This document shows, piece after piece, positions 3,031-42,366 of a stretch of 64,000 bases of DNA. The stretch is from positions 156,463 to 220,462 of the forward strand of contig NZ_JAILWB010000008.1 of assembly GCF_025699295.1 (NCBI RefSeq). Direction: 5' to 3'. Within the stretch, counting starts at the first letter, position 1; the number at the start of each line of letters is the position of its first letter. The DNA is from Hydrogenophaga sp. (GTDB taxonomy: Bacteria > Pseudomonadota > Gammaproteobacteria > Burkholderiales > Burkholderiaceae_C). The position numbers were made by a program, and so were the translations under genes. A model generated the notes under the pieces. The model did not search any database and had not been told where the DNA came from. It saw only the letters and a program-made list of their open reading frames with translations.

Positions 3031-3105
3031 GCGGGAACCCACGACCCCATGCGGGAAGTGGATTCCCGCGGGGGTTGGATGGTGAAGGCAGGCGCTAAGA
3101 CCTGC
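3031..3105 (-). promoter_or_regulatory. Structured 5' leader, copy 1 (upstream of DUF3150)
   Basis: RNA sense: GCAGGUCUUAGCGCCUGC hairpin, then CCAACCCCC-[GCGGGAAUCCAC]-UUCCCGCAUGGGGUC-[GUGGGUUCCCGC]; 12-bp stem with one GU. Confidence 0.7.
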
Positions 3106-3248
3106 GAACGGCTATGCCGAACATTTGCATGATAGGTCTTCACGCACACGGGCGCAAAGGATCTGGCTCACGTTGGCTGGTTCGCGCCTTCAAGTAGCCT
3201 GACGGCGTCCCGCAAGTTGCTCCGCTCTGTGTCACGCACTGATACAGC

Positions 3249-4532
3249 CTACCGGGGCTGCGTCGTCTCATGCTCGCTTGCGATTCGCAAAACGCGCTCA
3301 ACTGGAACCTGGTATCGAGGATCGGCCGTGCTCTCGGGTTTGACCATCTCTGAATGCCCCCACTGTGGATATCGCAGGTATTCATTGCACTGATAGATTG
3401 CACTGTCCTCGGAAACAACCGCGTCATGAGGACTTGTTAGACAGTAGCCGTGAGGACGATCACGGAATGAATTCCAATCGTCTCGAAGGCTATCGAGCAT
3501 TTCGCTTCCCGGTCGAAGATCCTCCGCGTACCCTCGACTGAGGCCAAGCGTTGACAGTAGCCTCGCGATGTCGGCCCCTCGATAAGGCGATGCAATTGAT
3601 ATGACGCTCTTGTAGGCCATGTTGTTGTTCGCAAGGCGATTTTCGAGAAGCATCCCCCGAGCGATGAGCCCTCCCATCGAATGGGCGATCACGTAGATTT
3701 CCGTGTACTGTTCGTATCGTCCATTGATCACCATGAGTTCGTTCAGCCAGCGTGACATCTGACGGATTCGCAAGTTTCGTCTTGCGAGCACCGTGGGGTA
3801 TTCAACCATCCACAGGTCGAACTCCTCGAGTCGAGAGTCGTTCTTGAGCAATTGCGGAAACTGGTTCCAAGTGCCGGACGCATCGCCGTTCCAACCGTGC
3901 AGAAGCACCAGTAGTTTGTGGTTCTGCGTACCCCTTCTCACCACTGCGGGCTCTTCAAGCCCCGCCGTAGGTGGGATGATCAGGCTCCCCGTGACGCGCG
4001 GCCAGACCGCAATGGCAAGCGCAAGCACTATCCCAATCACGGTCCCCACTCGTCGTGCCGCGCGGTACCGATCGGCGCCGCTCACTTTCCAGTACGCCGT
4101 TGTTCCGACTGCGCGATAGACGCGTATCGTCAGTGCCCCCGCCACAACCACTACTGCAGCGTGGGCGACGAGGCTCAATATGTACCCAGGCAGTGAGCGC
4201 AACCACCGTGGCACAGTGCTCGACTCTGACAGACCCGGAATCTCCACCGCGGTCGGCACCCCGAGCAGACTCCAGAAAGCAAGAGACACACCGACAAAAG
4301 CCACAAGAAGCCAAAGTGTCGGCAGTCTGGAACTTGGCCGCCTCCTTCTTGTATCTCGGTTGGCGTGCTTGATGAAAGATTCCGCTTCAGCCGTAGCACG
4401 CTCCGATTGCACGGCAACTGAGTCTGATCTTCGCAGTATTGCGAGCAACGCGAGTGCAACTACAGCTACCGTCCCTGTCAGGGAGAACAAGGCCACCTGG
4501 TTCCGGATCAAGAAGTCCAGCAAGTCGCTCAT
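3249..4532 (-). CDS. Membrane-anchored alpha/beta hydrolase (lipase-like)
   Basis: N-terminal TM segments; LLVLLHGWNGD and AHSMGG nucleophile elbow; start taken at MSDLLDF. Confidence 0.6.
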   Translation of the reverse strand: MSDLLDFLIRNQVALFSLTGTVAVVALALLAILRRSDSVAVQSERATAEAESFIKHANRDTRRRRPSSRLPTLWLLVAFVGVSLAFWSLLGVPTAVEIPGLSESSTVPRWLRSLPGYILSLVAHAAVVVVAGALTIRVYRAVGTTAYWKVSGADRYRAARRVGTVIGIVLALAIAVWPRVTGSLIIPPTAGLEEPAVVRRGTQNHKLLVLLHGWNGDASGTWNQFPQLLKNDSRLEEFDLWMVEYPTVLARRNLRIRQMSRWLNELMVINGRYEQYTEIYVIAHSMGGLIARGMLLENRLANNNMAYKSVISIASPYRGADIARLLSTLGLSRGYAEDLRPGSEMLDSLRDDWNSFRDRPHGYCLTSPHDAVVSEDSAIYQCNEYLRYPQWGHSEMVKPESTADPRYQVPVERVLRIASEHETTQPR

Positions 4533-4557
4533 CAAGCACCTCCCGAGGTCCAAGCAG

Positions 4558-4803
4558 CTACATCTCGATCTCCGGGCCAGACGCGTTGTTGTGTTGTGCC
4601 AGAACCGCCTCCGCGGGAGCAAGGTCGCACACAACAACTGCCTGGTTCGCATCGTCCCAATCGTGAACGACTCGAATCACCACAAAAGCCCGCCGATTCG
4701 CGGCAATGATGATTTCACCTTTGATGGGTATGCGCCGAAGCAACACCGGATCTCGATTGGCCAGTTTTCCTGTCGAAGCCATGCGCAAATAGACAGCCTC
4801 CAT
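4558..4803 (-). CDS. Hypothetical protein
   Basis: About 81-aa ORF starting MEAVYLRMASTGKLANRDPVLLRRIPIKGEIIIAANRRAFVVIRVVHDW. Confidence 0.35.
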   Translation of the reverse strand: MEAVYLRMASTGKLANRDPVLLRRIPIKGEIIIAANRRAFVVIRVVHDWDDANQAVVVCDLAPAEAVLAQHNNASGPEIEM

Positions 4804-5067
4804 ACGCCCTCCTCTATGCTCGTACAGACGTGGACCACAACGGAAACGGGACTGCCAGAAGCACCTTGTCATACGCGGTCATCGCGTATTGGCTCCAGTG
4901 GCTAGTCTGTCGCCCAGCTGTTGCAGCTGGCAGTCGAATTCTGAAGTGTTGTTCACTTCTCGACAATAGGCCTGTTTGACTGTCTGAAAGCTCGGTTGCC
5001 TTTAGACAGTCCCCTCTTTCGAGGGAACTGCGAAACCGGGGCGCTACCCCCGATTCCACTATTTTGG

Positions 5068-7255
5068 TTAGCCGCAGCTACCAATGTGCCCGCACGCATC
5101 GCACGACTCGCACCCGTTGACCTTGTGCAGCGCCATGGCACCGCATTCCGGGCACTGCTTGCCGCCCAGGCGAACCTCACGGCTTTCCTTGGCGCCCACG
5201 TCGACCACACCCGAGGTGTTGTCACTGCGAGCCAGCGGAGCGCCTTTCAGCAGGCCCAGCGCTTTCATGCGCGCCAGCAGCAGGGTGGCCACGTAGGCAA
5301 CTGTGCTCGGGTAGTTCTCTTGCTTGACGTCTCCCGGCACCTGGGCCAGGAAGTCGCCACGCACCTCACCGAAGTTCGCCAGCTTCTCCAGCTTCATGGC
5401 CACCCATTTCGGGTCGCTCACTCGCATGTCGATCGACAGCACCTTCATGAGGCCGTTCAGAGCCGCCGGATAGGTACCAGACAACCACACCGAGTACGGG
5501 CGGATCTGGCCGTTGGGCAACTTCAGTTCCTTCGTATGCAGGAGGAAGTCGTCGCCCGTTGCCGGGTTGCTTACGTCCACATGCCAGCCAAGACCACCGT
5601 TGGGCCCAGTCTTAGGCTCGCGCCGGCTGAACAGGGCTTCCATCATCGGCGAGGCCTTGTGTTCATTGAGCGCACCGATCTCGTTCAAGCGATGCTTGAC
5701 CAGGACCGCGAAGCCAGCCGTCAGTGACGGCATCAGCACTCGTGCGCCCGTTGCCGGGTGGGTCATCTCGAAACCGTCATCACCGACCGTGTTGATCAGG
5801 GAGTCCAGCTTCATCTGCAAGAAGGCGCCGTCGTCGGTACGCATGTCCACGCTCAGGGCCTTTGCGATTGCTCCCAGGCCGCGCGGCGCTTCGTTACCAG
5901 CAATGTAGACCTCCAACGGATGTTTCTCGCCGTTCTGCCAGTGGTTCACAACCACCGCGAAGTCCCCTTGCGGGTGACGCACGCTGTAGGTGACACCCTC
6001 TGCCACTACGTCCGGTCGGCTCGGCCAACGCAGGTTGTCAACGACGTTGGGAACGTCCTTGATCTCCACGCGACGGTCCGGATCATCGGTTCGCAGATCC
6101 TGCTCACCTTTGCCGGCGCCTTTGGCTTCTTCTTCCGTCATCAGCACCGCGCCCGTCATTTCGTTGGGGCGATAGGTGGTGATCCCTTTGAGGCCCGATT
6201 TCCATGCATCCATGTAGATGCGCGAGAAGGCCTCGAAGGAGTAGTCGGCCGGCACGTTCACCGTCTTGCTGATTGCGCTGTCGATGAAAGGAATCACAGC
6301 CGCCATGACGCGCAGGTGTTCCTCAACCGATAGCTCCAGCGCCGTCGCGATCACAGAGGTGTCCGCGTCCTCGCCTTTGACCATCTTCAGCACGCGGTAT
6401 GCGTGATCGTCCGCGGTCCAGAGCTTGCGCTCCTCGCCTTTGCCGGTACGCACGTTGCGGTATTGCTTCAGCGCGAACGTGGGCTCGATGCCGGAGCTTG
6501 CGTTGTCCGCAAAGCCCAACGAGATCGTGCCAGTTGGCGCAATCGACAGCAGATGCGAATTGCGGATGCCATGCTTGCGTATGGCCTCTTTGATGTGCTC
6601 GGGCAACGTCGATGCGAAGGTACCCTCTTCCAGGTACTTGTCCGCGTCGAACAGGGGGAACGCGCCCAGTTCTTTTGCCAGCTCCACGGAAGCCATGTAG
6701 GCGGCATCACGCATCTCGCGCGTCACCTTCGACGCGAACTCAGCGGACTCTTCGCTACCGTAGCTCAGGCCCAGCATTGCCATCGCGTTTGCCAGACCAA
6801 GGTAGCCCAGACCGATGCGACGCTTGAGGTGCGCTTCCTGCTTCTGTTGCTCCAGCGGCCACTTGGTTGCATCGAGCACACGATCGAGCATTCGAACGGC
6901 GCCCGGCACCACGCGCCTGAACGCCTCGTAGTCGAACTCCGCCTCGTGCGTGAAGGGGTTCTTCACGTAGCGGTAGAGATTCAGTGCACCAAGGTCGCAG
7001 CAGCCGTAGCCTGGCAACATTTGCTCACCACATGGATTGCTCGCCGCGATGGTTTCGCAGTATCGTAGGTTGTTGGCTTCGTTGATGGTGTCCAGGAACA
7101 TCACGCCAGGGTCCGCCGTCTCGTACGTGTTTCGCATGATCTTCTGCCACAGGTAGCGGGCCTTGATCGTGCGGTAGACGTAGCGCGCTTTGCCGTCCTT
7201 GCAGACGACCGTTTCGGTCGCGCCGCGCGGAGGGGCTTCGTGCACCAGGTTGAAA
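5068..7255 (-). pseudogene. nrdJ: 3' part of adenosylcobalamin-dependent (class II) ribonucleotide reductase, separated from its 5' part by an insertion
   Basis: Starts inside DFNLVHEAPPRGATETVVCKDGKARYVYRTIKARYLWQKIM; contains NPCGEQMLPGYGCCDLGALNL, two TSCPD-like segments and C-terminal CPECGAMALHKVNGCESCDACGHIGSCG. Confidence 0.9.
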
Positions 7256-7260
7256 TCACC
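7256..7260. repeat. Target-site duplication (left), TCACC
   Basis: TCACC immediately left of CGTAGGGCGCCA; same 5 bp at 22332-22336. Confidence 0.85.
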
Positions 7261-7527
7261 CGTAGGGCGCCAGAGTAGTTGCTCTGGCGCATTGGAGAAA
7301 TCAAGGACTTGCGGGACTTCGTGCCACAGGGCTGGACCCGCTCGGACCAAAGTTGGTGCGACCGACCTGCTTCGCCGCCAAGGTTCTTGCAACTTGACTT
7401 CTGGCGAGACGCTGAAAACTTTGTCGATGGCGGGCGGCTGCCTTGCAGAAAAATGGCTCGGGCATGCAAACCGCGAGTTGCATCGCTCACACAATGGGTG
7501 ATGAGCAATGGCTTGATTGCCGGTGGG

Positions 7528-8754
7528 CTAGATGTGCTTGAGATCGACCAGAAGAGCGGCGTCGGCGGCCAGATCGTCCCCGCATATCCATTCGACTGCA
7601 TCGAGCTTCAGTCGAATGTATTTTTTGAAGAGCTCTCGCAAGTCCTTCTCGATCGAGGTTGCAGTCAAACCGGGCTGCAGCACCCCACGGAAGGTAAGAA
7701 TCTCTCTGTGCTCACGCTTCGAGACAACCACTTGCGCGCGTTGAATCTGCGGGATGCGCACCAGCATCTCTTCAATGTTGCGCGGATAGATGAAGATTTC
7801 GCGGGCTTTCACCGCCTGTCCAACCCGGCCCTTCAGCGGGCTGATGCGGCTGACGAATCCGTCGGTCGAGGTGGCGATACCTTCGGCCAAATCGCCTGTA
7901 CCAAACCGCACAAGGGGCCAGCCGTGATTCAGGGTGGTGACCACGATCTCACCGGTGTGACCCAAGGGCAAGGGAATGCCCGTTCGGGGGTCACAAATCT
8001 GGACCAGCCTTTGCGGCTGCACGGTGTAGCCTTCATGGCCCGCTTCTTCGTAGCCGATGAGGCCAAAATCGCCGGTCGCGTACGCTGAGAAGGTCTTGAT
8101 GCTGTAGCGGTTCTCCAGTGCACGCCGCTTGCCCATCCAGTCGCCCATTTCCCCACCGAGCAGCACCGACTTGAGTTTCCAGGCCGCCGGAAGCGGATGG
8201 CCCAACTGCTCCAGTGTGTTGATCAGCGTGATGAAGAAGGCCGTTGAGGCGCAGACGCAGGTGACACCCAGTTCCAGTATCAGTTGGGCCTGCTGTTCGG
8301 CGCCACCGGGGCCGCAGGGAATGACGGTGGCGCCTGTGGCCGCGATGCCCTGGTCGAGCAGGACACCTGCAGGTACCAGGTGATACGACCATGTGTTCAG
8401 CACCCGGTCCTGTGGGCCGATGCCCGCGCGCCGGAAGCTATGGGAAAAGCCGTGACCGTCCCGATCGTCGTTCAACTGAGGTTCGTAAATGGGGCCTGGC
8501 GACACAAAGATGCGCCGGATCGCTGCTTCGTCGGCGGCCAGGAAGCCGCCGAACGGCGGCGCCTTGCGCTGGTGGTCCAGCAGCGCGTCCTTGCTCGTGA
8601 CGGGCAGGCGCGCCAAGTCGGCCGCACTGCGGATCTCCTGCGGCGTCATGCCCGTGCGCTCGTAGATGTCGCGGATGGCGGGCGCGCGGTCGTAGGCGTT
8701 CTGCTGCGCGGCACGAAGGTAGGCGAGCCGATCCGGCGGCAAGGGGTACGTCAT
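7528..8754 (-). CDS. Phenylacetate-CoA ligase (PaaK)-like adenylate-forming enzyme
   Basis: AYATGDFGLIGYEEAGHEGYTVQPQRLVQICDPRTGIPLPLGHTGEIVVTTL...VKAREIFIYPRNIEEMLVRIP. Confidence 0.75.
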   Translation of the reverse strand: MTYPLPPDRLAYLRAAQQNAYDRAPAIRDIYERTGMTPQEIRSAADLARLPVTSKDALLDHQRKAPPFGGFLAADEAAIRRIFVSPGPIYEPQLNDDRDGHGFSHSFRRAGIGPQDRVLNTWSYHLVPAGVLLDQGIAATGATVIPCGPGGAEQQAQLILELGVTCVCASTAFFITLINTLEQLGHPLPAAWKLKSVLLGGEMGDWMGKRRALENRYSIKTFSAYATGDFGLIGYEEAGHEGYTVQPQRLVQICDPRTGIPLPLGHTGEIVVTTLNHGWPLVRFGTGDLAEGIATSTDGFVSRISPLKGRVGQAVKAREIFIYPRNIEEMLVRIPQIQRAQVVVSKREHREILTFRGVLQPGLTATSIEKDLRELFKKYIRLKLDAVEWICGDDLAADAALLVDLKHI

Positions 8755-8769
8755 GGTCGGCCTCTTCGC

Positions 8770-9582
8770 CTACTGGCCCGTGAATCGGGGCGGCCGCTTC
8801 TCTTCGAAGGCCAACAATCCTTCGCACTGGTCGGCGCTGTGCGAATGCACTTCCGAGGCGAGCAGTTCCAGGCGCAATGCGGTCTCCATGGGTTGTTGCA
8901 GGCCATCGTCGATCAGCGCCTTCATGCGCCTCACGCCCAGCGGACTCTTGGTGGCGATCTTGTCCACCAGAGTCTGGGTGGCCTCCTCCAGATCTCCTGC
9001 GTCCACCACCTGGTTGACCAGACCGGCCTGCATCATGTCTTCCGCAGTGAGAAAGTCACCTGTGAAAAGCAGGTACTTGGCGCGTGTGGGCCCAATGACG
9101 CGGGGTAGGCGAACCGAGCCCCCTCCGCCCGGCAACAAACCGTAGTTCGCATGGGCATCGCCGATCTTGGCGCCACGAGCGGCCAGCACTAGGTCGCAGC
9201 AGAGCACCAACTCCAGGCCGCCGGCCAGGGCCAGTCCATTGAGTGCGGCGATCACCGGTTTTGGGAAGCTGTCCAGCCGGTTCATCGTGGTCAGGACACA
9301 GTCGAGAAACCGACGCGGGCCGTCCGGGTCCGATTGCGCGCGAACGTACTTGAGATCAGCCCCGGCGCAGAAGGCCCGGCCCGCGCCGGTGAGAACGACC
9401 GCCCGAACCTCGGGGTTTTTCTCGGCCTCGTTCAGGGCCTGATCAATGCCGTTGAGCAGTTCCGGTGTGAGGGCGTTCATGGCCTCCGGCCGATTCAGGC
9501 GGATCCACATCGCCCCTTGGCGGACTTCCACGACAACAGCGGGTGGCGGCATTGTTTCTCTCTCCATGGCTTGTTTTTTCAT
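8770..9582 (-). CDS. Enoyl-CoA hydratase/isomerase family protein
   Basis: LNRPEAMNALTPELL...GAGRAFCAGADLK...LNGLALAGGLELVLCCDLVLAA crotonase signatures. Confidence 0.9.
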   Translation of the reverse strand: MKKQAMERETMPPPAVVVEVRQGAMWIRLNRPEAMNALTPELLNGIDQALNEAEKNPEVRAVVLTGAGRAFCAGADLKYVRAQSDPDGPRRFLDCVLTTMNRLDSFPKPVIAALNGLALAGGLELVLCCDLVLAARGAKIGDAHANYGLLPGGGGSVRLPRVIGPTRAKYLLFTGDFLTAEDMMQAGLVNQVVDAGDLEEATQTLVDKIATKSPLGVRRMKALIDDGLQQPMETALRLELLASEVHSHSADQCEGLLAFEEKRPPRFTGQ

Positions 9583-9648
9583 GATCGGATTCTGCGATTC
9601 AACCGGCAGTCGGGCCCTCGGTAATTTCCATTACTGCAGGGTTGTTAA

Positions 9649-9666
9649 TTTTACTTTACAGTAAAA
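9649..9666. promoter_or_regulatory. Candidate operator, copy 1 (TTTTACTTTACAGTAAAA)
   Basis: Near-palindrome in the divergent intergenic region between the crotonase and CoA-transferase genes; shares 15 bp with 10793-10810. Confidence 0.6.
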
Positions 9667-9688
9667 ATTAAACAACCGAAAGAGCAGA

Positions 9689-10756: not shown

Positions 10757-10792
10757 TCAGGCATCGGGATTTCCCTAGTCGTTTCGTCAAAA

Positions 10793-10810
10793 TTCTACTT
10801 TACAGTAAAA
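10793..10810. promoter_or_regulatory. Candidate operator, copy 2 (TTCTACTTTACAGTAAAA)
   Basis: Shares TACTTTACAGTAAAA with 9649-9666; about 65 bp upstream of the thiolase start. Confidence 0.6.
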
Positions 10811-10875
10811 CAACTTTACAAACAGTAGATCGGTGTCGAGGCGGCGCCTCCATTCGACCCGCTTAAAGGAGAAAT

Positions 10876-17790: not shown

Positions 17791-19041
17791 GTGAATACAA
17801 ACAATGGATGTCTGTCGGCCTTTGCCCGCGTGGCGCGATGCGGTGCCTTGGCCGCCGGTGTGTTCGGTCTCGCGGGCACGGCCCAGGCACAGACCACCTA
17901 CAACATCGCTGGACTGGCCGACTTCACCGGGCCTTATGCCGACGTCATGAAGGACATGACCGGTTGCCGCAAGGGCGTGCTCGACTGGTGGAGTGAGGAG
18001 GTGGGCAAGCCCCAGGGTGTGGCGCTTCGCGTCAAGGAGTACGACACGCGCTACGACGTCGCGCAGGTCGCCAGCCTGTGGCCCGGCATCCGGTCGGAGC
18101 TGGACCCCGTGGCCATTCTGGGCATCGGCGGGTCGGACGCGGCGGCCCTGCAGCAGCGCCTGCCCAACGACAAGGTGCCCCAGGTCCTGGCCACGGCCGG
18201 TTATGGCTTTGCCTGGAAGAGCGACAGCTGGGTGTTCAACGCCCGAGCCACCTACCCGCACGAGGTGGCGGCCTTCTACACCTGGTTGCAGAAGAAATCC
18301 GGTTCCGCCGCGCCCATCAAGGTCGGTGTGATTTCCTCCGAAGTGTCCCCGGCTTACGTGGACATCCACAAGGGAACCGAGAAGTTCGCGAAAGACAACC
18401 CCAAGATCCTGGAAGTCGTGGAGACGGTCTACACCGAAGCCCAGCCCACCGACCTGACGCAGCAAGTGAACCGCCTGATTCGCAAGGGCGCGACCGTACT
18501 CCAGGTCTTCAACAACACGGCCTCCGTGGTGGCGACGCGCCGTGCCCTGCAAAGCCTGGGCAAGACCAACATCCCCATCGTCATGTCGGCCCACAACGGC
18601 TTGATTTCATCGGGCAAGGCCCTGGGTGGTCTGGAGCAGATGGAAGGCAACTACGAGGTCTACGGCATGGCCATGCCCACGGACGATCCGACCACGGCGC
18701 GGGCCTTCTTCGACCAGCTGCGCAGCAAGTACAAGGCACAGGTCAGCTACACCTCGGCCTGCATCATGGGCATGAGCCAGGGCCTCATCGTGGCCCGTGC
18801 CGTCGAGCAGGCGATCAAGACCAAGGGGGTCAAGGGCGTCAAGGGGGAGGACGTCCGCGCGGCGCTGCTGTCCACGCCGATGCCGAGCGAGCGCAGCTTT
18901 GGCGTGCTGCCCAACCTGCAGTACGGCAAGGATGCGCCATTTCCCACCGAAGGCCTGGCCGTCAACATCGGCACGGTGGAAAAGGGCAAGTACAAGCTGC
19001 TGGAACAGAACGTTCCCATGCCCGTGTTGAACAAGTGGTAA
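17791..19041 (+). CDS. ABC transporter substrate-binding protein (LivK-like)
   Basis: GTG start after GGAG; signal peptide ending AQAQT; TYNIAGLADFTGPYADVMKDMTGCRKG periplasmic-binding fold. Confidence 0.8.
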   Translation: MNTNNGCLSAFARVARCGALAAGVFGLAGTAQAQTTYNIAGLADFTGPYADVMKDMTGCRKGVLDWWSEEVGKPQGVALRVKEYDTRYDVAQVASLWPGIRSELDPVAILGIGGSDAAALQQRLPNDKVPQVLATAGYGFAWKSDSWVFNARATYPHEVAAFYTWLQKKSGSAAPIKVGVISSEVSPAYVDIHKGTEKFAKDNPKILEVVETVYTEAQPTDLTQQVNRLIRKGATVLQVFNNTASVVATRRALQSLGKTNIPIVMSAHNGLISSGKALGGLEQMEGNYEVYGMAMPTDDPTTARAFFDQLRSKYKAQVSYTSACIMGMSQGLIVARAVEQAIKTKGVKGVKGEDVRAALLSTPMPSERSFGVLPNLQYGKDAPFPTEGLAVNIGTVEKGKYKLLEQNVPMPVLNKW

Positions 19042-22174: not shown

Positions 22175-22331
22175 GGACACCGACGTTTTATGCGCTGTGA
22201 GAAGGGCGCAGCAAGACCCAATACCACCATAAGTTGGCGATAACTTTGGCGCGAAATAGGGCAGTCGCAACAACTAGTGACCTCCAGTCGCAGCACTTTG
22301 GCGCCAGTTCCATTTAATGTGGCGCCCTACG

Positions 22332-22336
22332 TCACC
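22332..22336. repeat. Target-site duplication (right), TCACC
   Basis: TCACC immediately right of TGGCGCCCTACG. Confidence 0.85.
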
Positions 22337-23068
22337 ATCGCTGATGACCGCATCCATGAACTCGTTGGTCACGCCCACCGAGATGTTGAACTGAGACAGC
22401 TGCGCAAACGCGCCGCGCACCATCCAGCCGAAGTTCGGTTTGCTCGCCAGGAGCTTCATGAACTGGCGCTCTTCCGCCTCGTCCAGACCCATGGTCTTGA
22501 AATCCGGGGTCTTCTTCGAGTCGATGAACGCCTCGATGTCCGGGTGATCGCAGCGCAGCACGCCCATCTGGGCACCGCGGCGGGCACCGGCCGATTCCAC
22601 CGTCTGGCAGGCTCGGTCAAAGACTCGCATGTAGCTCACCGGGCCGGAGGCCGTGGAGTCGGTGCCCTTCACATGCGCGCCACTGGGGCGAATCAGCGAG
22701 AAGTCGTAGCCGACGCCGCCACCTCGACGCATGGTTTCCGTGGCTTGCGCCAGGGCTTCCATGATCCCGGGCATGCCGTCTTTGTACCCGGTCATGGTGT
22801 CCGCGATAGGCTGAACGAAGCAGTTAATCATCGTAGCCACGCGGTCCATTCCAGCAGCACTGTTGATGCGCCCGGCCGGGATGAAGCCGTCGATCTGCGT
22901 CTGCAGGAACAGCTGCTCCATCTCAGGCGTGGTCGCCAAGGCCTTGGCCACGCGCTGCTGGACTTGCAGCATGGTGGTTTCACCAGGTGCTGCGTACTTT
23001 TCTTTGAAGACGTGAGCGCACAGATCCTGAGCAGGCAGGGGCGGCAGCACGTTGAAGTCTTGTTTCAT
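22332..23068 (-). pseudogene. nrdJ: 5' part of class II ribonucleotide reductase, interrupted by the element
   Basis: Native residues MKQDFNVLPPLPAQDLCAHVFKEKYAAPGE...SQFNISVGVTNEFMDAVISDGD; the remaining track residues GRHIKWNWRQSAATGGH are read from the element. Confidence 0.9.
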
Positions 23069-23118
23069 TGGGGACTCTCAGTTGGGGGTTGAATTGCTAA
23101 AGGGGGTCTACGAGACCC

Positions 23119-23192
23119 GCCAATGCACACCCCCCAACGGGGAGGTGCGCATTGGCTGGCCCCGTGGGGAAATGCCGTCCTTGGCGAACGGC
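23119..23192 (-). promoter_or_regulatory. Structured 5' leader, copy 2 (upstream of nrdJ)
   Basis: RNA sense: CCCCACGGGGCCA-[GCCAAUGCGCACC]-UCCCCGUUGGGG-[GGUGUGCAUUGGC]; 13-bp stem with one GU; GCCGU...ACGGC hairpin upstream. Confidence 0.7.
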
Positions 23193-23430: not shown

Positions 23431-23661
23431 TCAATGCACCACAGATGGCGGCCACTGCAGGGGGTGGAAGGCCTCAGCCTCCTGCCACCACTGCGGCGAA
23501 GGCGGTTTGCCGTCGACCATCAGCCCCACGTAGGGATTGAAGCCGATGCGGTGGATCGCCATGGATTCGTCGTGCTTTTCAATCACAACGACCATGCTTT
23601 CCTCGCCTGTAGCCTGCTGGAACTTCACTACCTGCTCTCGCAGGTTCTCACCGATGCACAT
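23431..23661 (-). CDS. Small hypothetical protein (76 aa)
   Basis: MCIGENLREQVVKFQQATGEESMVVVIEKHDESMAIHRIGFNPYVGLMVDGKPPSPQWWQEAEAFHPLQ; GGAGA upstream. Confidence 0.55.
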   Translation of the reverse strand: MCIGENLREQVVKFQQATGEESMVVVIEKHDESMAIHRIGFNPYVGLMVDGKPPSPQWWQEAEAFHPLQWPPSVVH

Positions 23662-23676
23662 GTTGTCTCCGGTTGT

Positions 23677-23721
23677 GACCGAAGGCACCCCCGACCGGGA
23701 GGTGTCCCGGCCAAGGGTTGG
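23677..23721 (-). promoter_or_regulatory. Structured 5' leader, copy 3 (between ssb and the 76-aa ORF)
   Basis: RNA sense: CCAACCCUU-[GGCCGGGACACC]-UCCCGGUCGGG-[GGUGCCUUCGGUC]; stem with internal loop. Confidence 0.65.
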
Positions 23722-27025: not shown

Positions 27026-27662
27026 CGAAAAGTTCCTTAAAGACATTTCCAAGGCCAATCTCTTTGAGGACGGGGACTAAGCCGTCCTGCAGTCGCTCAG
27101 GGCTGTAGCCGCAGATGCGGCAGCACTGTTCAAACGAGAAAGGTGTTGCGGATTGAGGCAGGATTGCCTCAACAGGCTGCATGTGTTCGTCCTGGAGGAC
27201 GGCAACCATGGTGGTGGGAGCGAAGATCCACTGCAGGACCTCTTTCTTCTCTGCGCCGTTGCCGCGGGCCTGAAGCAACCTCAGCGAGTAGTGCAGGACT
27301 ACCTCGTGAAGCTCCTCAATGGCGGCATCGGACCACTCTTCGGACTCACCGTCGAGCGCTTCGATCTGTTCGATGACATTGACCCGCAAAGGGTCCACAT
27401 CACAGTTCAGTTCGTTGCCGTCTCTGGGTCCGCCAAGTGGGATGTCCAGCAGGCGATCGTCAATCGCATCGAACAGGCCTGCGTCCGCTGTTGCCTCCCT
27501 GACCCGAAAGGTCCTGGTGGCACCGTCGCGGCGATGGGCTTTGTCCTTGCGCTGCTCGATCGCGAGCATGGCCTGCTCAACAGCCTCGATTTCGTGGCTG
27601 AGGAACATCGGCAGGTGAAGCTGTCGGTATTGCTGCGTGGGGTCAGTCGCTGCGGCGCTCAT
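26955..27662 (-). CDS. Hypothetical protein, overlapping the 5' end of the CobS-like gene
   Basis: 235-aa ORF with ATG at 27662 downstream of leader copy 4. Confidence 0.55.
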   Translation of the reverse strand: MSAAATDPTQQYRQLHLPMFLSHEIEAVEQAMLAIEQRKDKAHRRDGATRTFRVREATADAGLFDAIDDRLLDIPLGGPRDGNELNCDVDPLRVNVIEQIEALDGESEEWSDAAIEELHEVVLHYSLRLLQARGNGAEKKEVLQWIFAPTTMVAVLQDEHMQPVEAILPQSATPFSFEQCCRICGYSPERLQDGLVPVLKEIGLGNVFKELFDGKQNTRNPEVQRANDLRVGGST

Positions 27663-27717
27663 AGGATCTCTCCCAGATGCCGGCGATGTATGTGTCCATC
27701 GAGCTTCCAGCTGGTGT

Positions 27718-27805
27718 GCCGGAAAAGCCCCCAGCCGGGAGCTTGTCCCGGCGGGGTGGATGAATGCGGTGTGACCGCTTGGTGAATGCTGGCACTAAGA
27801 CCAGC
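27718..27805 (-). promoter_or_regulatory. Structured 5' leader, copy 4
   Basis: RNA sense: GCUGGUCUUAGUGCCAGC hairpin ... CCACCCC-[GCCGGGACAAGC]-UCCCGGCUGGGG-[GCUUUUCCGGC]. Confidence 0.7.
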
Positions 27806-27953: not shown

Positions 27954-28088
27954 TCACTTGCCTGCCTCTTCCAGAACCTTCTCGATCTGAGAATGACGAT
28001 CCTGGATCTTGGTGGAACCAGCAGTGCCGGTGCCGATAGCGAAGTAGGCGACCAACAGCGAAGCGACGACCAGCAGAACTGCTTTCAT
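27954..28088 (-). CDS. Small (44-aa) membrane/secreted peptide
   Basis: MKAVLLVVASLLVAYFAIGTGTAGSTKIQDRHSQIEKVLEEAGK; GGAGA upstream; leader copy 5 upstream and terminator downstream. Confidence 0.6.
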   Translation of the reverse strand: MKAVLLVVASLLVAYFAIGTGTAGSTKIQDRHSQIEKVLEEAGK

Positions 28089-28118
28089 GGGACTCTCCAG
28101 AAAAGGAAGACCCACCAA

Positions 28119-28162
28119 GCAATCCGCACCCAACGGGCAATGGAATTGCCCAGATGGGAAGT
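28119..28162 (-). promoter_or_regulatory. Structured 5' leader, copy 5 (upstream of the 44-aa peptide)
   Basis: RNA sense: CUUCCCAUCUGG-[GCAAUUCC]-AUUGCCCGUUGGGUGC-[GGAUUGC]. Confidence 0.6.
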
Positions 28163-32965: not shown

Positions 32966-32978
32966 CAATTCCTGGCCA

Positions 32979-33680: not shown

Positions 33681-33785
33681 GTTCGAGTCATTTCGACAGT
33701 TGAGGTGAATTCAAGATATCTGAGTCTCTCGAAACTTCCAGATCGGTTGTCGAAGGCGGTGGTGGCATGTGCACCTCAGCCCCTC

Positions 33786-33820
33786 AAAAAAAAGGCCCGA
33801 GCGCAATGCCCGGGCCTTTT
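33786..33820. terminator. Bidirectional rho-independent terminator
   Basis: AAAAAAAAGGCCCGAGCGCAATGCCCGGGCCTTTT. Confidence 0.85.
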
Positions 33821-33846
33821 CCGTGTGTTGTTGAACCTGCAGCACG

Positions 33847-35342: not shown

Positions 35343-36112
35343 CAGAATTCTCCTTCGGCCCGAACGTGCGGGCGCTCATAGAAATCGAGCGCCAACAGAT
35401 CGTTGACGTTGAGTTTGATGTCCACCAGAACGTTCTCGGGGAACGTCTTGGCAGGCCGATTGAGTTGCTTCTGCCAAAAGGCGCAGGGCTCAACCCCGAG
35501 GGTCAACCTGTCCTTCTGACGGAAGTTCGGGTGGGTGAAGTTCGATCCGAAGAAGAACCGTTCCCAGGCCTCGAGGTCGTTGCGCTGATCCTCTTCCGGC
35601 AGCATGGCGTTGCCCACGCAGACCTGGCCGTTGGACCACACGTTGAAGAACGGGGCTTGAAACAGTTGGGTCTGCCTCGTCGGTGCAGCGTCGCCCTTGA
35701 AGGCGAAGACATGCAGCGTGCGAGCCGCGGCCATGAACACCAGCCCCGGGGTGGGACAGGTGCCTTTACCGCTGAACTCGACCAGGCTGTGACTGCTCGC
35801 CTTGAAGAACATCGCGCGCTTGCGCGGCGGTGTCCACCAGATGAGCCGCCCCATACCCCTTGCGAGGATGGCCGGGTCGTTCCACTCGATGCTGGGCCGA
35901 TCCTTGGGTTTGAGCCCTTCGATCAGCGCCTTGTAATCGCCCTCTGTGAGGGGGCTTCCCGGTCGAATCATGGGCTTACCGTCCATGAGCTCGATCGGAT
36001 GCTTCGTCGCGTAAGCGTCTCGGCTTGCGCGCGACTGGTAGACCAGTAGGGCATGGGTCAGGTTGTACTGATCGCCCAGGCTGTCCGCTTCAAATTTCAT
36101 CGTCGTCTCCAT
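35342..36112 (-). CDS. PRTRC system protein B
   Basis: 256 aa; overlaps neighbours; position in the cassette. Confidence 0.75.
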   Translation of the reverse strand: METTMKFEADSLGDQYNLTHALLVYQSRASRDAYATKHPIELMDGKPMIRPGSPLTEGDYKALIEGLKPKDRPSIEWNDPAILARGMGRLIWWTPPRKRAMFFKASSHSLVEFSGKGTCPTPGLVFMAAARTLHVFAFKGDAAPTRQTQLFQAPFFNVWSNGQVCVGNAMLPEEDQRNDLEAWERFFFGSNFTHPNFRQKDRLTLGVEPCAFWQKQLNRPAKTFPENVLVDIKLNVNDLLALDFYERPHVRAEGEF

Positions 36113-37214
36113 GGACGGAAAGGTGTGACATCAGCCGCTCGAGCAGATGCCACGCGTTGAGATAGTCCTTGAGTTGAACGACGAGCCCAGCGAGTTGCTG
36201 GTCCGTCACTCCATCCTTCAAGGGCAGGGTTTTGCGCGCGTAGGCCTCAACGACGTCGCCGGCGTTGTAGCTGTTCTCCTCCGCGTGGGCTGCCGTCTCC
36301 CAAAGGAGGTGCGGGTCATCCCAGGCCAAGAAGCACATAGCGCCGATCGACTCCATGTCGGCCGAGTACTCGTCCTGGAAGAAGCCGAACTCAGGCGCGC
36401 CCTTCTTGGTGAGCGCAGCGTGTACGTCCAGGGCCGCACTCACACACGGTGCTTGAGGGTGCTTGCCATTGGTCTTGAGCCAACGCTTCACCGCCCGAGT
36501 GCTGGCCGGCCGACCGTTTCTTTGCTTCTTGGCTTTTGGCTTGTAGGAAACAGTGCCAAGCAGGTGGGCGTGTCCTCCCACGCTGTTCAGAATGTCCGAA
36601 GGCCAGTGCACGTACTGCTCGCGCAGTGCTGCGATCTTGTCCTCAGATACCGGGGAATCGTCCTCGTACTCACGCGCACCCTCTTCTGCAAGCAGCAAGC
36701 GGGCAAAGCATTCGTCGGTGAACTCATCAAGCTCGCTTAGACGGTAGTCCAGGTGATAGGCCACCATCGCCATGTCGTACATGAACAGCCCCGAACAACG
36801 GGCCTGTTCCAGCACTTCGTTGACGAACCACCCCAAGCCAGCCATGGCGACCTCAAGGGGCTCGACCACCGGCTTGAGCTGGAAGGTTGGTAGATGTTGA
36901 TCCGCGCCGATGTAGATCGTCAGCAACTCGTCACTGACCTCCACGCGGGGGTGGCCGAGCAGGGTTTGCCCGAGACCTTCATAGCGCTGGCTCACGAAAT
37001 CGGTCCATTGCTGAGCGACCACTTCCTGCACCGACTGCATCTGCCCGCCGGGCAGCGCAACGCCAGAGGCTTCACCCGCGAGGGCAAAGCGTGCAAGTAC
37101 GCGAGATCGCTCTGATGCCTGCTCCAGCACGTAGGGGATCTCCGGGGAGATCGTGGGCAGGACGAAAAGCCCCGGGACCGCTACTGCGGCGGGGGCGCTT
37201 TCCATTGTTTCCAT
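36090..37214 (-). CDS. PRTRC system protein F
   Basis: 374 aa, first gene of the F-B-A-ThiF run; leader copy 6 upstream. Confidence 0.7.
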   Translation of the reverse strand: METMESAPAAVAVPGLFVLPTISPEIPYVLEQASERSRVLARFALAGEASGVALPGGQMQSVQEVVAQQWTDFVSQRYEGLGQTLLGHPRVEVSDELLTIYIGADQHLPTFQLKPVVEPLEVAMAGLGWFVNEVLEQARCSGLFMYDMAMVAYHLDYRLSELDEFTDECFARLLLAEEGAREYEDDSPVSEDKIAALREQYVHWPSDILNSVGGHAHLLGTVSYKPKAKKQRNGRPASTRAVKRWLKTNGKHPQAPCVSAALDVHAALTKKGAPEFGFFQDEYSADMESIGAMCFLAWDDPHLLWETAAHAEENSYNAGDVVEAYARKTLPLKDGVTDQQLAGLVVQLKDYLNAWHLLERLMSHLSVHGDDDEI

Positions 37215-37228
37215 GGGTTCTCCAGAGT

Positions 37229-37299
37229 CGGGAACCCAACATCCCCATCGGGAAGCGGGTTCCCAATGGGTAGGTAGAGGCGCAACGGCTAGGCGTCGC
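37229..37299 (-). promoter_or_regulatory. Structured 5' leader, copy 6 (upstream of PRTRC F)
   Basis: RNA sense: GCGACGCCUAGCCGUUGC hairpin, then UACCCAUU-[GGGAACCC]-GCUUCCCGAUGGGGAUGUU-[GGGUUCCC]-GACUCUGGAGAACCC-AUG. Confidence 0.75.
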
Positions 37300-37367
37300 G
37301 CGAAATCGCAAGGTGCGAAGACGGTGGGATTTTCGCAGACCCGCGCACTGGTGTCATCCGACCAGGT

Positions 37368-38462
37368 TCACCTCGCCCGCGGCAATATGCGGGTGGCGTT
37401 CTGAACTCCGCTCTCGTAAAGGTAGCCAAAAGGGTACCGCGCTGCCGCCAGCACGAGATAGGTAGTCTCGCGTGAGCCATCGTTACCCTCGTCAATCCAC
37501 CGCAAAACAGACGCCGGCACCGTCCTGGCAAGGATCCACCCGTTATGGCTGTCATCAGCGAAGAGGCGGTAGACGTTGTAAGCCTCTACTGGCGGGTCTC
37601 CTGACGCTCGCACCTGCCCAGATACGTCTTCCCATTCGATCAGAACGGCATGCTGACCGCTATTCGGCGACGTCACATGGGCTAGGCGCGTAACCTTGGG
37701 CTCCACCTCTAGAAGAGTGACAGGGTCCTGGCCGAACGCAATTTGGTTCGCCGTTATGACGATCACCGGCTTCGCGTCTGGCAGATCTACCTGACCTTCG
37801 TCAAAGTACTCAATCGGCGGGTTTGCCAACTCCAGGATGCTGCCTCTTGGCGGCCAATGGTGGATCTGGGTCTCGAATATGGGCTCTTTGCGAGACCGAA
37901 GTCGATGTGGTGCCGATGCCCCATCAGGCTGGAGGGTCAGGATCATCCGCCCACCCATCCGTAATTTCATTGCCGTCTGAGACGAGCGAGTGACTTCGCC
38001 CGCCATCACGAACCCGTCCTCCATGTGAACGAGCCATTGCGCCCCTATCGGCTGATAGGGCTCATCAGCAAGCAGTGACTTGGCGCGCCGAGTCACGTTG
38101 GCCAGGCCTACCGCCAGCCTCATAGGCCCAGCAGGCGCCAAAGGCGCAAAGCCATGCTTTGCGAATCGAAGGATCTCAACTGACTCGGACACCACCCCAC
38201 CAGCGGCAAGACTGACCGCCACCTCAGGTGATACGGAGTGGCTTTTTCGACATTGACTGCCGCATGCCGTCACCTCTGAATTGAGGTTGACTGGCTGGCC
38301 GTTGTACAGGGCACTCGCCGTCAACGCCAAGTGCAAAGAGGATGTTTCGAATTCACTCGCCTGCGCCAAGGGCTCGAACGCGCTCGCTACGCTCCCGTCA
38401 TCGGCGGCGGTGTTGATGCCAACAGGAGCGACATTGACGCCTGTAGTGCGGAGTAATGGCAT
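37368..38462 (-). CDS. Hypothetical protein with fibronectin type III-like C-terminus, inside the PRTRC locus
   Basis: 364 aa; PKVTRLAHVTSPNSGQHAVLIEWEDVSGQVRASGDPPVEAYNVYRLF. Confidence 0.4.
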   Translation of the reverse strand: MPLLRTTGVNVAPVGINTAADDGSVASAFEPLAQASEFETSSLHLALTASALYNGQPVNLNSEVTACGSQCRKSHSVSPEVAVSLAAGGVVSESVEILRFAKHGFAPLAPAGPMRLAVGLANVTRRAKSLLADEPYQPIGAQWLVHMEDGFVMAGEVTRSSQTAMKLRMGGRMILTLQPDGASAPHRLRSRKEPIFETQIHHWPPRGSILELANPPIEYFDEGQVDLPDAKPVIVITANQIAFGQDPVTLLEVEPKVTRLAHVTSPNSGQHAVLIEWEDVSGQVRASGDPPVEAYNVYRLFADDSHNGWILARTVPASVLRWIDEGNDGSRETTYLVLAAARYPFGYLYESGVQNATRILPRAR

Positions 38463-38575
38463 AAGCGCTCCTCCTATTCGAGTTTTCTGCGCCGACTATG
38501 ACTCGACCGAGAGGTGACGTTCACAGATGGACGCGCCACGCGTCGCGGCGCATCTACTGGAAGTTGCACGAACTC

Positions 38576-39139
38576 TCAACCCCTGGGCAATGGCCTTCGC
38601 AACGTGTCTGTCTCTACCAGAACTGCCGTTGTTCGAAGTTCTGCAGCAATTTTCGTAAGCTCAACCCGAGACTTGTGTACTTCATTCAGGAGTTTGCTGA
38701 ACGGCAAGAGCTGGCGAGCAGCAGAGTCCCGAGCATCATCGTCAACGAACAGATCCCCATTGATGCAAACCGTCCCATCACTGTTTAGGTGAGCACCCGC
38801 CTGTATCAAGACAGCCGGATGGATGAACGTCAGGGCAAACAAAGGCTCTAGCTGTTTCGCAGTCTGCTGCGCGGGCTTGGCCAGCCTCCAGTAGGAATCC
38901 AACTCGCTACAAGCACGCACCATGTCGCGAAACTCCTCCGTCAGGTCGGGCGGAGACCCACGCTCCTGCTCGATACGATCCAGCGCTGTCTTGGACGCAT
39001 TGATCAATCTGTCGATTGAGTCCGCAATTCCGTTCAGAAGCCGCGCTTGCTCATGCCGCCGCTCTCGATCCATCCGAGTTGCATCAACAAACGTCTTCTG
39101 CAGGAAGGACAGCGCCGTCAAAATGAAACCATCTGGCAT
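38576..39139 (-). CDS. Hypothetical protein
   Basis: 187-aa minus-strand ORF, helical sequence. Confidence 0.4.
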   Translation of the reverse strand: MPDGFILTALSFLQKTFVDATRMDRERRHEQARLLNGIADSIDRLINASKTALDRIEQERGSPPDLTEEFRDMVRACSELDSYWRLAKPAQQTAKQLEPLFALTFIHPAVLIQAGAHLNSDGTVCINGDLFVDDDARDSAARQLLPFSKLLNEVHKSRVELTKIAAELRTTAVLVETDTLRRPLPRG

Positions 39140-39377
39140 GCGGGCTCCAGAACACCTGAATTGGCCTCATCTGCAAAGCATGGACTGTGGCACTCAATGC
39201 AGCAGAAGCTCAATCATGAAGAATCGACTGTTGCATATGTCAGCACTGCGCGCAAGTCAGTACGAACGCCCCACCGCGCGACGAAATCCATTTCCTATGT
39301 TCGGCTGCATCGATCTCCCGTTTCGAACGTTGCTGGTTCCGGTTACTGTTGGCTGCAGGGCTTCTGCTGCAAGCAGC

Positions 39378-39415
39378 CAAAAAAAAACCCGCCGAGGCAC
39401 GAGGCCAGGGCGGGT
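39378..39415 (-). terminator. Rho-independent terminator downstream of PRTRC ParB-E-C
   Basis: Minus strand ACCCGCCCTGGCCTCGTGCCTCGGCGGGTTTTTTTTT. Confidence 0.8.
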
Positions 39416-39482
39416 CACTTGATGAGTTGTGTTGTCGTACGGCGCCCCATGGATGTCCATGGTTCGCGCCGGCGTCAGGGTC

Positions 39483-39899
39483 TTAGCCCCAGATGCCAAA
39501 GGCCTGCGAAGGCATGCCCATCGGCTGCCCACTGCTGCGGCTGTCCGAGAGAACAGTCATCAGTCTGGCGGCCGCCTGGCGGTCGTTGTTCGACTTCATC
39601 TCCATCGCGGGCAGGCTACCGGTAGCCCCTGCCGTCACAACTCGCTCGATGAGCGATCGTGCGTCCAGCAACGTGGCACTGGGAGCCGCCTCGACGCGTC
39701 CTTTCGCGCCGGCGGCCCGAATGAACTTCCAAGTGGCCACTCCGTTTTCCGTCGTAGGGCCCTCGGTGACAGCGTTGTTGAGTTCCGGGAACTGCGTCGC
39801 GTAGAACTCCCGCACCTGATCGAGCGTCATCGACTCGTTCGGATCGGGCAACGTCAGCGAGTTGTAGCGAAACTTGCGCGTGAGGTTGAGCACTTGCAT
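39483..39899 (-). CDS. PRTRC system protein C
   Basis: MQVLNLTRKFRYNSLTLPDPNESMTLDQVREFYATQFPELNNAVTEGP; downstream of protein E. Confidence 0.75.
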   Translation of the reverse strand: MQVLNLTRKFRYNSLTLPDPNESMTLDQVREFYATQFPELNNAVTEGPTTENGVATWKFIRAAGAKGRVEAAPSATLLDARSLIERVVTAGATGSLPAMEMKSNNDRQAAARLMTVLSDSRSSGQPMGMPSQAFGIWG

Positions 39900-39910
39900 G
39901 GTCTTCCTCC

Positions 39911-40423
39911 TCAGAACAGAGACTCGTCCAGAGCGCCAGTGCCAGCGGGTTGAGCATCGCTGCCCTCCTCACCGGCCGGATCCCCCGACTCATCAATTTC
40001 TTGGGTATCGCCGCCGTCCATAAGGCCGTCGGTGAGATCGCGCGGTTTCTTTCCCGGCACCGAGGGCCTGGTCATGGACTTGCCGGGCGCTTTCGGCGTC
40101 GACTTGTTGGCGACCGCAGCCTTGGCTTCCTGAGCGAGGCTCTTGGCAGCATCTTCCGCAGCTTTGAGTTCCGCCTGGGACTGCTCGATCAGACCGGAAA
40201 TGGTCAGTTGCGAGGCCAGGTACGTCTCCAAGAAGGCGGGCAGCTGCTCGTCGAGCTCGGCCGCCGATGCGACCAGGGCCTTAGGAGTGAGCGTGATGCC
40301 TGCCTTGTTTTCCTTGGCCACAGGGATCAGGTCCAGCTGCAGCTTCTCGCCGTTGGCAGAAAGCTTCATCTGAATCGTCACACCAGCGGCAACCAGGGGA
40401 GCGAATTGTTGAAAGAGGTTCAT
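39911..40423 (-). CDS. PRTRC system protein E
   Basis: MNLFQQFAPLVAAGVTIQMKLSANGEKLQLDLIPVAKE; between ParB and C. Confidence 0.75.
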   Translation of the reverse strand: MNLFQQFAPLVAAGVTIQMKLSANGEKLQLDLIPVAKENKAGITLTPKALVASAAELDEQLPAFLETYLASQLTISGLIEQSQAELKAAEDAAKSLAQEAKAAVANKSTPKAPGKSMTRPSVPGKKPRDLTDGLMDGGDTQEIDESGDPAGEEGSDAQPAGTGALDESLF

Positions 40424-40448
40424 GTCGTCTACTCGTGATGAGGTTTGA

Positions 40449-40516
40449 CAGGAACCACCCCCCCTGATGGGAGGTGGGTCCCATCGGGAGGTGTTTCTGC
40501 TGAGCCGTCAGGGCTC
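40449..40516 (-). promoter_or_regulatory. Structured 5' leader, copy 7 (upstream of PRTRC E)
   Basis: RNA sense: GAGCCCUGACGGCUC hairpin, then CACCUCCCGAU-[GGGACCCACC]-UCCCAUCAGGGGG-[GGUGGUUCCU]. Confidence 0.7.
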
Positions 40517-40527
40517 AACGGGTTGGC

Positions 40528-42276
40528 TTACTTGCCCCAGCGCATAAGTGCCGGAACGTTGCCTCTGTACTCGAAGCCTTCAACTGCCAACACGCCCTTG
40601 ACGAAGTCCTTCTTGGGACCGTTCTTGAGCTTGTCGTAGTGCTTGCCTGCTGCATCCGCCAGGCCGATCTCAATGCACACGGCGTCAATCTCGGTTTTGG
40701 TGAGGATGTCCAGGAAGGTCTCGTTGAGCTTCCAGTAGTTCTCGATGCGGATGTCCAGCGCCTTGAGGTAGCCGGTGATATCCGCGATCGGAGCCGTCTT
40801 GCTGACGTTCGCTGCAAGGTGCTGCAGCGCCGTCGCCAGCGCGGTCTGATCCAGGCCCAGGAGCATGGTCAGAAGTTTGCTGGTGTCGAGCTCGGTGTTG
40901 AGCTTGACGTTCAGCGCCTTCTCGATGGCCTCCGTACTGGCCATCCGATCCATATCGGACGGTCTGTGCAGTGCCAGTGCCACGAGCAACGCTCGGTTCT
41001 GAAGCACGGGCAGCTTCTCAGCTGCTCGCTTGAACACCGCGCGCCAGATGGCTTCACGGTACTCTTTCACAGTCCCTCGCGGTTCTGCACTGGCCACGAC
41101 CTTCGGCGCCGCTTTTGCAGGCGCATTCGACGTCTTGGTCGGCGCTTCGGTCGGTGCTGTGGACGTTTCCTTGCTGGCAGGCACCGCTCCCGCATGCTCC
41201 TCCTTCTCGGCGGAGCCTGCCGGTGCGGACGCTGCCTGCGCATCCTTGAGTGCCTTGACGTTGATCGCCACCTTCTCATCGTTGCAGGTCTTGTTGAAGC
41301 ACACGTCCTTGTAGACGAGGCCCAGCTTGTCCGGAACCGCTGAAACGCACGCGCCAAAGTCACCACAGGTGCGACAGGCCCTTGCCTGTTCTTCACCCAG
41401 CCCCTTCACACCATCTGCGCGCACGGGCTGCAGGGTTGCGTTCTCGCCCGGTCGGACGATTCGCACCACCTGGTAGGTGTCGGCAAGCGCCTTGACGCGC
41501 TTTTGCAGCTCGTCTTCGGTCTTGTCCGAGTAGCACTCCTTGTTCGTACAGCGTGAGCCACTGAACGAGGTCTCGAACATCGACTGTTGCATGCCGGTGT
41601 TGTACTGGCATCCAGTGCAATCGGCTCGATCGAAGATCGCCGCTTCCAGACTCAGCAGCGACTGTTCGGCCGCGGCCTTGAGCTGCTCAACGGTGATCTT
41701 TCCCTGCGCAGCGAGCAGTTTGGCAAGCACGTTGGCCTGCACTTCTTTGCGCAACGCGGCGAGGATCTCCACGTGGCCCACCAGGATCTTGTCCTCCAGG
41801 TAGGCGTCGCGCACCTCTTGCGTGGCGTTCATCACCGCAAGGCGACGATCGAGTTTGTTGCGGCCCCAGCCCAGGCGGCGCGCGGCTTCCTCGCGGTCGC
41901 CCTTGCACAGCCCCAACATGCGCATGGCGCCTTCGGCATCTTCGATGACCGAGGGATCCTCACGCTCGTTGTTTTCCGCCAGCATGGCCGCCGTCGCCTC
42001 GGCGTCTGACATGACACTGACTTCGGCCTTGATCATTGCTTCTGGGCCGAACTCGGCCACCACTGCCTTGAAGCGGCGACCGCCAGCGATCAGCTGGTAG
42101 CTGTCGTCGGCGAGCTGTCGAACCACCACAGGCTGGAGTAGTCCTCGCGCTTTGATGTCTTCCCGCAGGCTGGCCATCTTCTCCGGGTTGTACCGGCGAC
42201 GATAGTTGAAGCCCTCCTTCACCTGCGAAACAGGGATGAGGCGGCTCTGCGCGACTTGGGGGTTGGTACTTTCCAT
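40528..42276 (-). CDS. PRTRC system ParB family protein
   Basis: Start MESTNPQVAQSRLIPVSQV...NYRRRYNPEKMASLREDIKARGLLQPVVVRQLADDSYQLIAGGRRFKAV ParB nuclease-like domain; Cys-rich middle. Confidence 0.85.
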   Translation of the reverse strand: MESTNPQVAQSRLIPVSQVKEGFNYRRRYNPEKMASLREDIKARGLLQPVVVRQLADDSYQLIAGGRRFKAVVAEFGPEAMIKAEVSVMSDAEATAAMLAENNEREDPSVIEDAEGAMRMLGLCKGDREEAARRLGWGRNKLDRRLAVMNATQEVRDAYLEDKILVGHVEILAALRKEVQANVLAKLLAAQGKITVEQLKAAAEQSLLSLEAAIFDRADCTGCQYNTGMQQSMFETSFSGSRCTNKECYSDKTEDELQKRVKALADTYQVVRIVRPGENATLQPVRADGVKGLGEEQARACRTCGDFGACVSAVPDKLGLVYKDVCFNKTCNDEKVAINVKALKDAQAASAPAGSAEKEEHAGAVPASKETSTAPTEAPTKTSNAPAKAAPKVVASAEPRGTVKEYREAIWRAVFKRAAEKLPVLQNRALLVALALHRPSDMDRMASTEAIEKALNVKLNTELDTSKLLTMLLGLDQTALATALQHLAANVSKTAPIADITGYLKALDIRIENYWKLNETFLDILTKTEIDAVCIEIGLADAAGKHYDKLKNGPKKDFVKGVLAVEGFEYRGNVPALMRWGK

Positions 42277-42293
42277 GGAATCTCCAAAAAAAA

Positions 42294-42366
42294 TGGGATT
42301 CCACGGCCCGCTAAGGGACTCGAAGAATCCCAGAGAGGGTTGGCTTGTGGCGCACAGGACGTGCGC
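42294..42366 (-). promoter_or_regulatory. Structured 5' leader, copy 8 (upstream of PRTRC ParB) with U8 tract
   Basis: RNA sense: GCGCACGUCCUGUGCGC hairpin, AACCCUCUC-[UGGGAUUCUUCG]-AGUCCCUUAGCGGGC-[CGUGGAAUCCCA]-UUUUUUUUGGAGAUUCC-AUG. Confidence 0.75.

Follow-up and report, generated by a model that had tools for sequence, protein, structure and literature searches.

A recurrent mRNA leader element with competing helices, probably a bistable translational switch, on mobile elements of Burkholderiales and their relatives

The DNA analysed here, referred to as the window throughout, is a stretch of 64,000 nt from Hydrogenophaga sp., which forms part of a 220,462-bp contig (C41, NZ_JAILWB010000008.1) in a 4.69 Mb genome. 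Eight minus-strand leaders within it carry the same kind of structured element just 5' of a start codon, and the evidence laid out below supports a selected RNA common to these leaders. We consider it probable that these mRNA leaders act as bistable switches of translation, the same device recurring at one gene after another of a mobile element; on our best reading, the putative switch would be used on establishment, replication and partition genes of that element. The eight leaders had been described before from the sequence by itself (the sequence-only reading), and everything in that description is indeed present: all of the stems, the CCC/GGG hairpins inside them and the start codons that follow. 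Their placement upstream of start codons holds as well, though the distance of 16-56 nt given then becomes 17-62 nt when recounted from the stem.

From 5' to 3', the element consists of a hairpin named P0 (with a folding z of -2.0 on average), a linker that stays unpaired and has CAA or the like as its last letters, CCC, the segments A, B and A', GGG, a segment X, the Shine-Dalgarno (SD) sequence and the start codon, and its size is about 45-70 nt. CCC pairs with GGG (P1), and A pairs with A' inside P1 (P2). Helix B is A+B paired with X; this is the long stem of the earlier description, whose inner hairpin is formed by the CCC of A' and the same GGG. In helix C, the partner of X is the SD region as far as the AUG. 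Helix B is mutually exclusive with both P2 and helix C, and the sequence on the SD side imitates A+B (GGGGCAAGC, GCUUGCUCC, GGAGCAAGC in locus L029). Of 90 predicted 3' hairpins, 86 include the SD region in a pairing and 48 the AUG. The sequence-only reading was thus correct as to helix B, while it missed P2, helix C, the P0 hairpin and the copies outside the window. A pseudoknot (P1+P2+P3) was also considered as the main fold. Pairing of the loop with X is significant (z=-6.5), but as this pairing is part of helix B, the pseudoknot was rejected; alongside P2 it looks sterically hard where 10-13 bp would be formed, and we retain it only as a possible intermediate.

Because copies of the element align poorly by sequence, pairing was assessed without an alignment, by comparing the duplex energies of cognate strands to those obtained when the partners are drawn from other leaders. 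Across 47 leaders, cognate partners were far better than permuted ones in all three helices (P2 z=-11.5, B z=-14.1, C z=-12.1), with none of 20000 permutations as good and three control pairings at about 0. The same holds for 13 leaders picked solely because they precede a DUF3150 gene (P2 z=-3.9, B z=-5.0, C z=-4.5), for 101 further leaders found in other genomes with model R2 (-15.7, -18.0 and -15.6, respectively; controls -1.2 and -2.4) and for seven leaders of the window alone (-4.7, -4.5 and -2.6, respectively). The claim that stems vary while pairing is kept is therefore upheld by covariation in P2, B and C. A MAFFT alignment (A1), in which the stems are misaligned, has no covariation in P1/P2 and some in helix B, and a model-refined alignment (A4) has 97 doubly changed cells in P1/P2 versus 35 in shuffles, A4 having been fitted to that very structure. 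Among five leaders of B12-dependent ribonucleotide reductase (RNR) genes, no two have the same P2, yet P2 is perfectly paired in each; helix B hardly varies.

Searches with model R1 led to the same element. This model was built from 33 hand-picked leaders of the window plasmid and four others, so that matches on those are expected. In the 4.69 Mb host genome, all ten matches at E<=1 lie on contig C41, on a single strand; since R1 was built partly from window copies, what is informative in this search is that five of the ten are new and lie beyond the window. Matches concentrate on one contig elsewhere too (12 of 14 in genome G115, 9 of 10 in G188 and 5 of 6 in G030). A strict descriptor finds 17 minus-strand matches on the window plasmid and 26 plus-strand matches on the G188 plasmid, whereas Markov shuffles give 0-4 per strand (0-3 for the window plasmid). 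One might suppose that all this reflects a repeated DNA palindrome devoid of an RNA role, be it an operator, a REP-like repeat or chance GC-rich inverted repeats, as the elements are GC-rich and partly palindromic and low-scoring matches occur on the reverse strand. However, stem sequence varies freely while pairing stays, neither the strand nor the spacing from the start codon changes, and the counts are well above those in shuffles, which makes this explanation exceedingly improbable.

What would such an RNA do? In the proposed OFF fold, the 5' hairpin (P1 and P2) would occupy A, and the free X would pair with the SD region and often with the start codon, thus blocking initiation. In the ON fold, A+B would capture X, GGG would pair with A', and the SD would be exposed. 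Opening of P1/P2, for example by a protein or an RNA bound to the unpaired linker and CCC, would then turn translation on. Translation is indicated as the controlled step by the adjacency of the start codon, the frequent proximity of an upstream stop codon, the pairing of SD and AUG, and the low number of promoter hexamers; we infer that OFF is the resting state and that ON follows when P1/P2 opens and X is captured by A+B. Translational riboswitches and other SD-sequestering leaders are 5' leaders whose hairpins exclude each other, the SD being hidden in one of them. The element resembles them, as its helices are mutually exclusive, one of them lies over the SD, and they are kept by covariation. 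It differs from them in lacking a recognisable ligand pocket, in combining many unrelated stem sequences with one architecture, and in occurring in up to about two dozen copies per plasmid. The earlier suggestion of a common cis-regulatory RNA is thus borne out, by covariation, by orthologs and by absence from Rfam, as far as a shared, selected leader RNA is concerned, whereas regulation itself is what we infer.

By nearest-neighbour energies, the fold with P1/P2 and helix C is lower than that with helix B in 38 of 47 leaders (mean gap 4.7 kcal/mol), and the two folds are less than 5 kcal/mol apart in 22 of the 47. Several points weigh against the bistable translational switch. Energies of this kind are rough predictions, and helix C is weak or replaced by a different hairpin in PRTRC E and RNR leaders. 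The z-scores of P2 are partly circular, as the landmarks were set by seeking P2 and the models score P1/P2 (helices B and C are affected much less), and permutation z-scores account only incompletely for the relatedness of leaders. RNAalifold applied to 37 leaders of another group prefers helix B. Finally, the elements show neither a strongly conserved pocket nor a ligand site of a known kind, and the fetched stretches compared revealed no regulator gene that every carrier has.

Some of these points lend themselves to other explanations. The preference of RNAalifold for helix B would suit a transcription attenuator, in which helix B and a U-run form an intrinsic terminator, P1/P2 is the anti-terminator, and it is the transcript length that is switched. 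In fact, helix B is followed by a U-run in many AT-richer copies, and 6-9 U stand directly past X in several (ParB, L029-L031, L164, L171). Yet the U-run past X is clear in just one of the eight window copies, it often pairs with an A-run before the SD and is thus part of helix C, and termination leaves the covariation between X and the SD unexplained. We therefore regard attenuation as unlikely.

The lack of a visible pocket and of a gene shared by all carriers in the stretches read, on the other hand, would fit a static or kinetic device with no dedicated trigger, which might delay or tune initiation, insulate each cistron from those next to it, allow new transcripts a brief period of translation until they refold to OFF, in the manner of metastable mRNAs of the hok type, or melt with temperature. 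Small predicted gaps between the folds fit such a device as well, and so does the strand order, which lets P2, B and C form successively, whereas the cost of keeping three covarying helices per copy suggests a regulated choice. This explanation is a serious possibility, albeit one we would not call likely. Plasmid mRNAs of the hok type fold metastably, and competing leader folds gate their translation; the element shares with them a plasmid mRNA leader with competing folds and differs in that no toxin or antisense RNA was identified, no test having been aimed at this. As to the trigger of the putative translational switch, a plasmid-encoded ProQ/FinO regulator was rejected, there being no ProQ/FinO protein on the plasmids. 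For this reason, and because comparison of stretches from the carriers revealed no gene common to them, our analysis speaks for a host factor or for a folding device that works by itself.

The element had been said not to belong to a recognised class, and a check of Rfam agrees: at the elements of the window and of further carrier loci, no Rfam 15 family reaches its gathering score, and permissive scans give unrelated weak matches only. No earlier description was found in the open PMC literature, subscription papers and preprints being outside the scope of that search. The radC RNA motif (RF01754), which Weinberg reportedly described in 2010, likewise lies in leaders of mobile-element genes in Proteobacteria, among them radC and genes for anti-restriction and DNA methylation. 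It is a 149-position model, unlike our element, and in eight carrier genomes it gave nothing above its gathering score and no weak match at the elements.

Other repeated or structured upstream regions are known from plasmids. CUP elements of IncN plasmids are repeated upstream DNA elements bound by ArdK, a transcription factor and repressor, and they join leading-region genes in one regulon (PMC6289460). Our element is likewise repeated upstream of genes and is set apart from CUP, by its description, in that selection here acts on the pairing of RNA with the SD and not on DNA. EGeRS1 regions of pLS20-family plasmids of Bacillus are structured and precede several establishment genes of one plasmid, but they span 420-750 bp with 62-95% mutual identity (PMC8708921), as compared to about 45-70 nt with freely varying stems here. 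Frpo/ssi single-stranded DNA promoters are hairpins serving leading-region genes (PMC11541004). Such a promoter might be suspected here as well, since copies of the element precede genes of the leading-region type (ArdC-like, SSB, RecT, RadC-like), mostly on one strand. However, the stem contains no -35/-10, with promoter-like pairs being rarer in elements than in shuffled copies, and the element adjoins the start codon, pairs with the SD and often lies within operons. We thus find a single-stranded DNA promoter very unlikely.

Most elements sit on mobile elements, of which many families are represented. Scans of sampled genomes at E<=0.01 per genome, for which about three to four false genomes per scan are expected by chance, found matches in 7 of 301 genomes of the family (R1), 28 of 399 of the order Burkholderiales (R2) and 17 of 369 of the class (R2). 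Carriers include Pseudomonas mandelii, Azotobacter, Stutzerimonas and Paraburkholderia plasmids. Matches are clustered, with 13 within about 12 kb in locus L164, 13 in L171 and about 18 in Sulfuricystis pSTJ2, and the genes in clusters include those for SSB, RecT, RadC-like, ArdC-like, nuclease-like and toprim proteins, B12-dependent RNR, ParB, PRTRC proteins, DUF3150 and DUF3577/STY4534 proteins. The element starts no more than 30 nt past the stop codon of the upstream gene in 31 of the 83 cases that have one. The Azotobacter plasmid pAcX50f (L189) also contains, at 17825-17939, a match to the ALIL pseudoknot (RF01497), an IS3-type frameshift signal going by its family name.

Orthologous PRTRC/DUF3150 loci were checked for the motif, and it is present in most of them. 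The closest named plasmids in the collection are Hydrogenophaga pBPS33-1 and pPBL-H3_B2-1 and Polaromonas sp. JS666 plasmid 1, and orthologous leaders with the element occur in pBPS33-1, pPBL-H3 and JS666, as well as before the DUF3150 and toprim genes of Comamonas pB1A. A search of genome contigs yielded 11 loci with a DUF3150 gene, every one of which has the element, and it is kept before DUF3150 in L001, L002, L004, L006 and L021-L031. The exceptions are pPNAP01 and an IncC-like Klebsiella plasmid, where it was not found in the stretches read. On pPNAP01 (L005), a different recurrent leader hairpin, approximately GGYUUGCCGUUAYG...CRUAACGGCAAGCC followed by a U-rich stretch, stands before the PRTRC ParB gene and other genes. 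Klebsiella CP124763.1 (L185) has a short AT-rich repeat (approximately AAATATATAAA) shortly 5' of the start codons of SSB, RecT, MoxR, DUF3150 and VWA genes, which is perhaps another plasmid-wide upstream element.

All eight leaders of the window are on the minus strand. The one before the DUF3150 gene spans 3008..3078 (start codon 3010-3008, coding sequence to 1904), with an R1 match at 3032-3076 (42.5 bits) and predicted energies of -33.4 (OFF) and -33.1 (ON) kcal/mol. In L022-L025, upstream of DUF3150 and about 100 nt 5' of the element, there are a promoter-like TTGCAC-N17-TATATT and a conserved small hairpin (GUUCGG...CCG) before P0, both weaker in L027 and L028; together they suggest a leader RNA of about 130 nt there. 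A conserved leader peptide before DUF3150 looked suggestive by eye in two leaders, but it was missing from others and was rejected.

That every leader precedes a backbone gene, as the sequence-only reading had it, needs qualification in two cases. The leader at 23066..23173 (start 23068, R1 match 23118-23172) precedes only the 5' fragment of a B12-dependent RNR gene. This gene is split on the minus strand into 5068-7494 and 22274-23068, which correspond to residues 245-974 (C part) and 1-246 (N part) of the pPBL-H3 protein. About 15 kb of mostly plus-strand genes lie between the halves, and the two junctions bear GTAGGGCGCC in opposite orientations, as expected of a transposon end. The second case is the leader at 27660..27760 (start 27662, R1 match 27719-27759, OFF -34.2, ON -31.0 kcal/mol), where a short open reading frame (ORF) comes ahead of the 235-aa gene. 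This ORF (MDTYIAGIWERSYE..., in the region 27630-27700, minus strand) lies between the leader and the 235-aa gene and overlaps the gene start, and L001 and L002 have comparable short ORFs in that position, which hints at translational coupling.

The leader before a 76-aa ORF (23659..23721, start 23661, R1 match 23678-23718, OFF -30.3, ON -28.4 kcal/mol) lies 11 nt past the upstream stop codon and has an ortholog in pPBL-H3. The one before a 44-aa ORF spans 28086..28161 (start 28088, R1 match 28116-28161, OFF -29.3, ON -26.8 kcal/mol), and both it and the leader of the 235-aa gene have orthologs in L001, L002 and L003. Three leaders belong to PRTRC genes. In that of PRTRC protein F (TIGR03742; 37212..37273, start 37214, R1 match 37229-37273, 44.3 bits, OFF -31.0, ON -32.7 kcal/mol), helix C (UGGGUUC/GAACCCA) adjoins the AUG, while the leader of PRTRC protein E (TIGR03741; 40421..40491, start 40423, R1 match 40448-40491, OFF -26.3, ON -30.5 kcal/mol) has the weakest helix C among the window copies. 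The leader of the PRTRC ParB-family gene (TIGR03734; 42274..42342, start 42276, R1 match 42293-42341, OFF -35.8, ON -26.7 kcal/mol) has a U-run past X.

If our reading is correct, one type of switch may control the translation of dozens of plasmid genes. We put forward tentatively, as a possibility short of an expectation, that this is a new RNA class by which conjugative plasmids and integrative and conjugative elements of Burkholderiales and their relatives would keep ten to twenty-odd genes translationally silent by individually evolved, equivalent switches, released together by one host-encoded or physical trigger, for instance while the element becomes established in a new host. One architecture with freely evolving stems would constitute a natural library of bistable RNAs, and the element can serve to flag genes of unknown function on mobile elements. 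Comparable regulons in the literature searched (CUP/ArdK, Frpo) work at the DNA level; the element described here offers a concrete, testable handle on post-transcriptional coordination of establishment, replication and partition genes in large conjugative elements.

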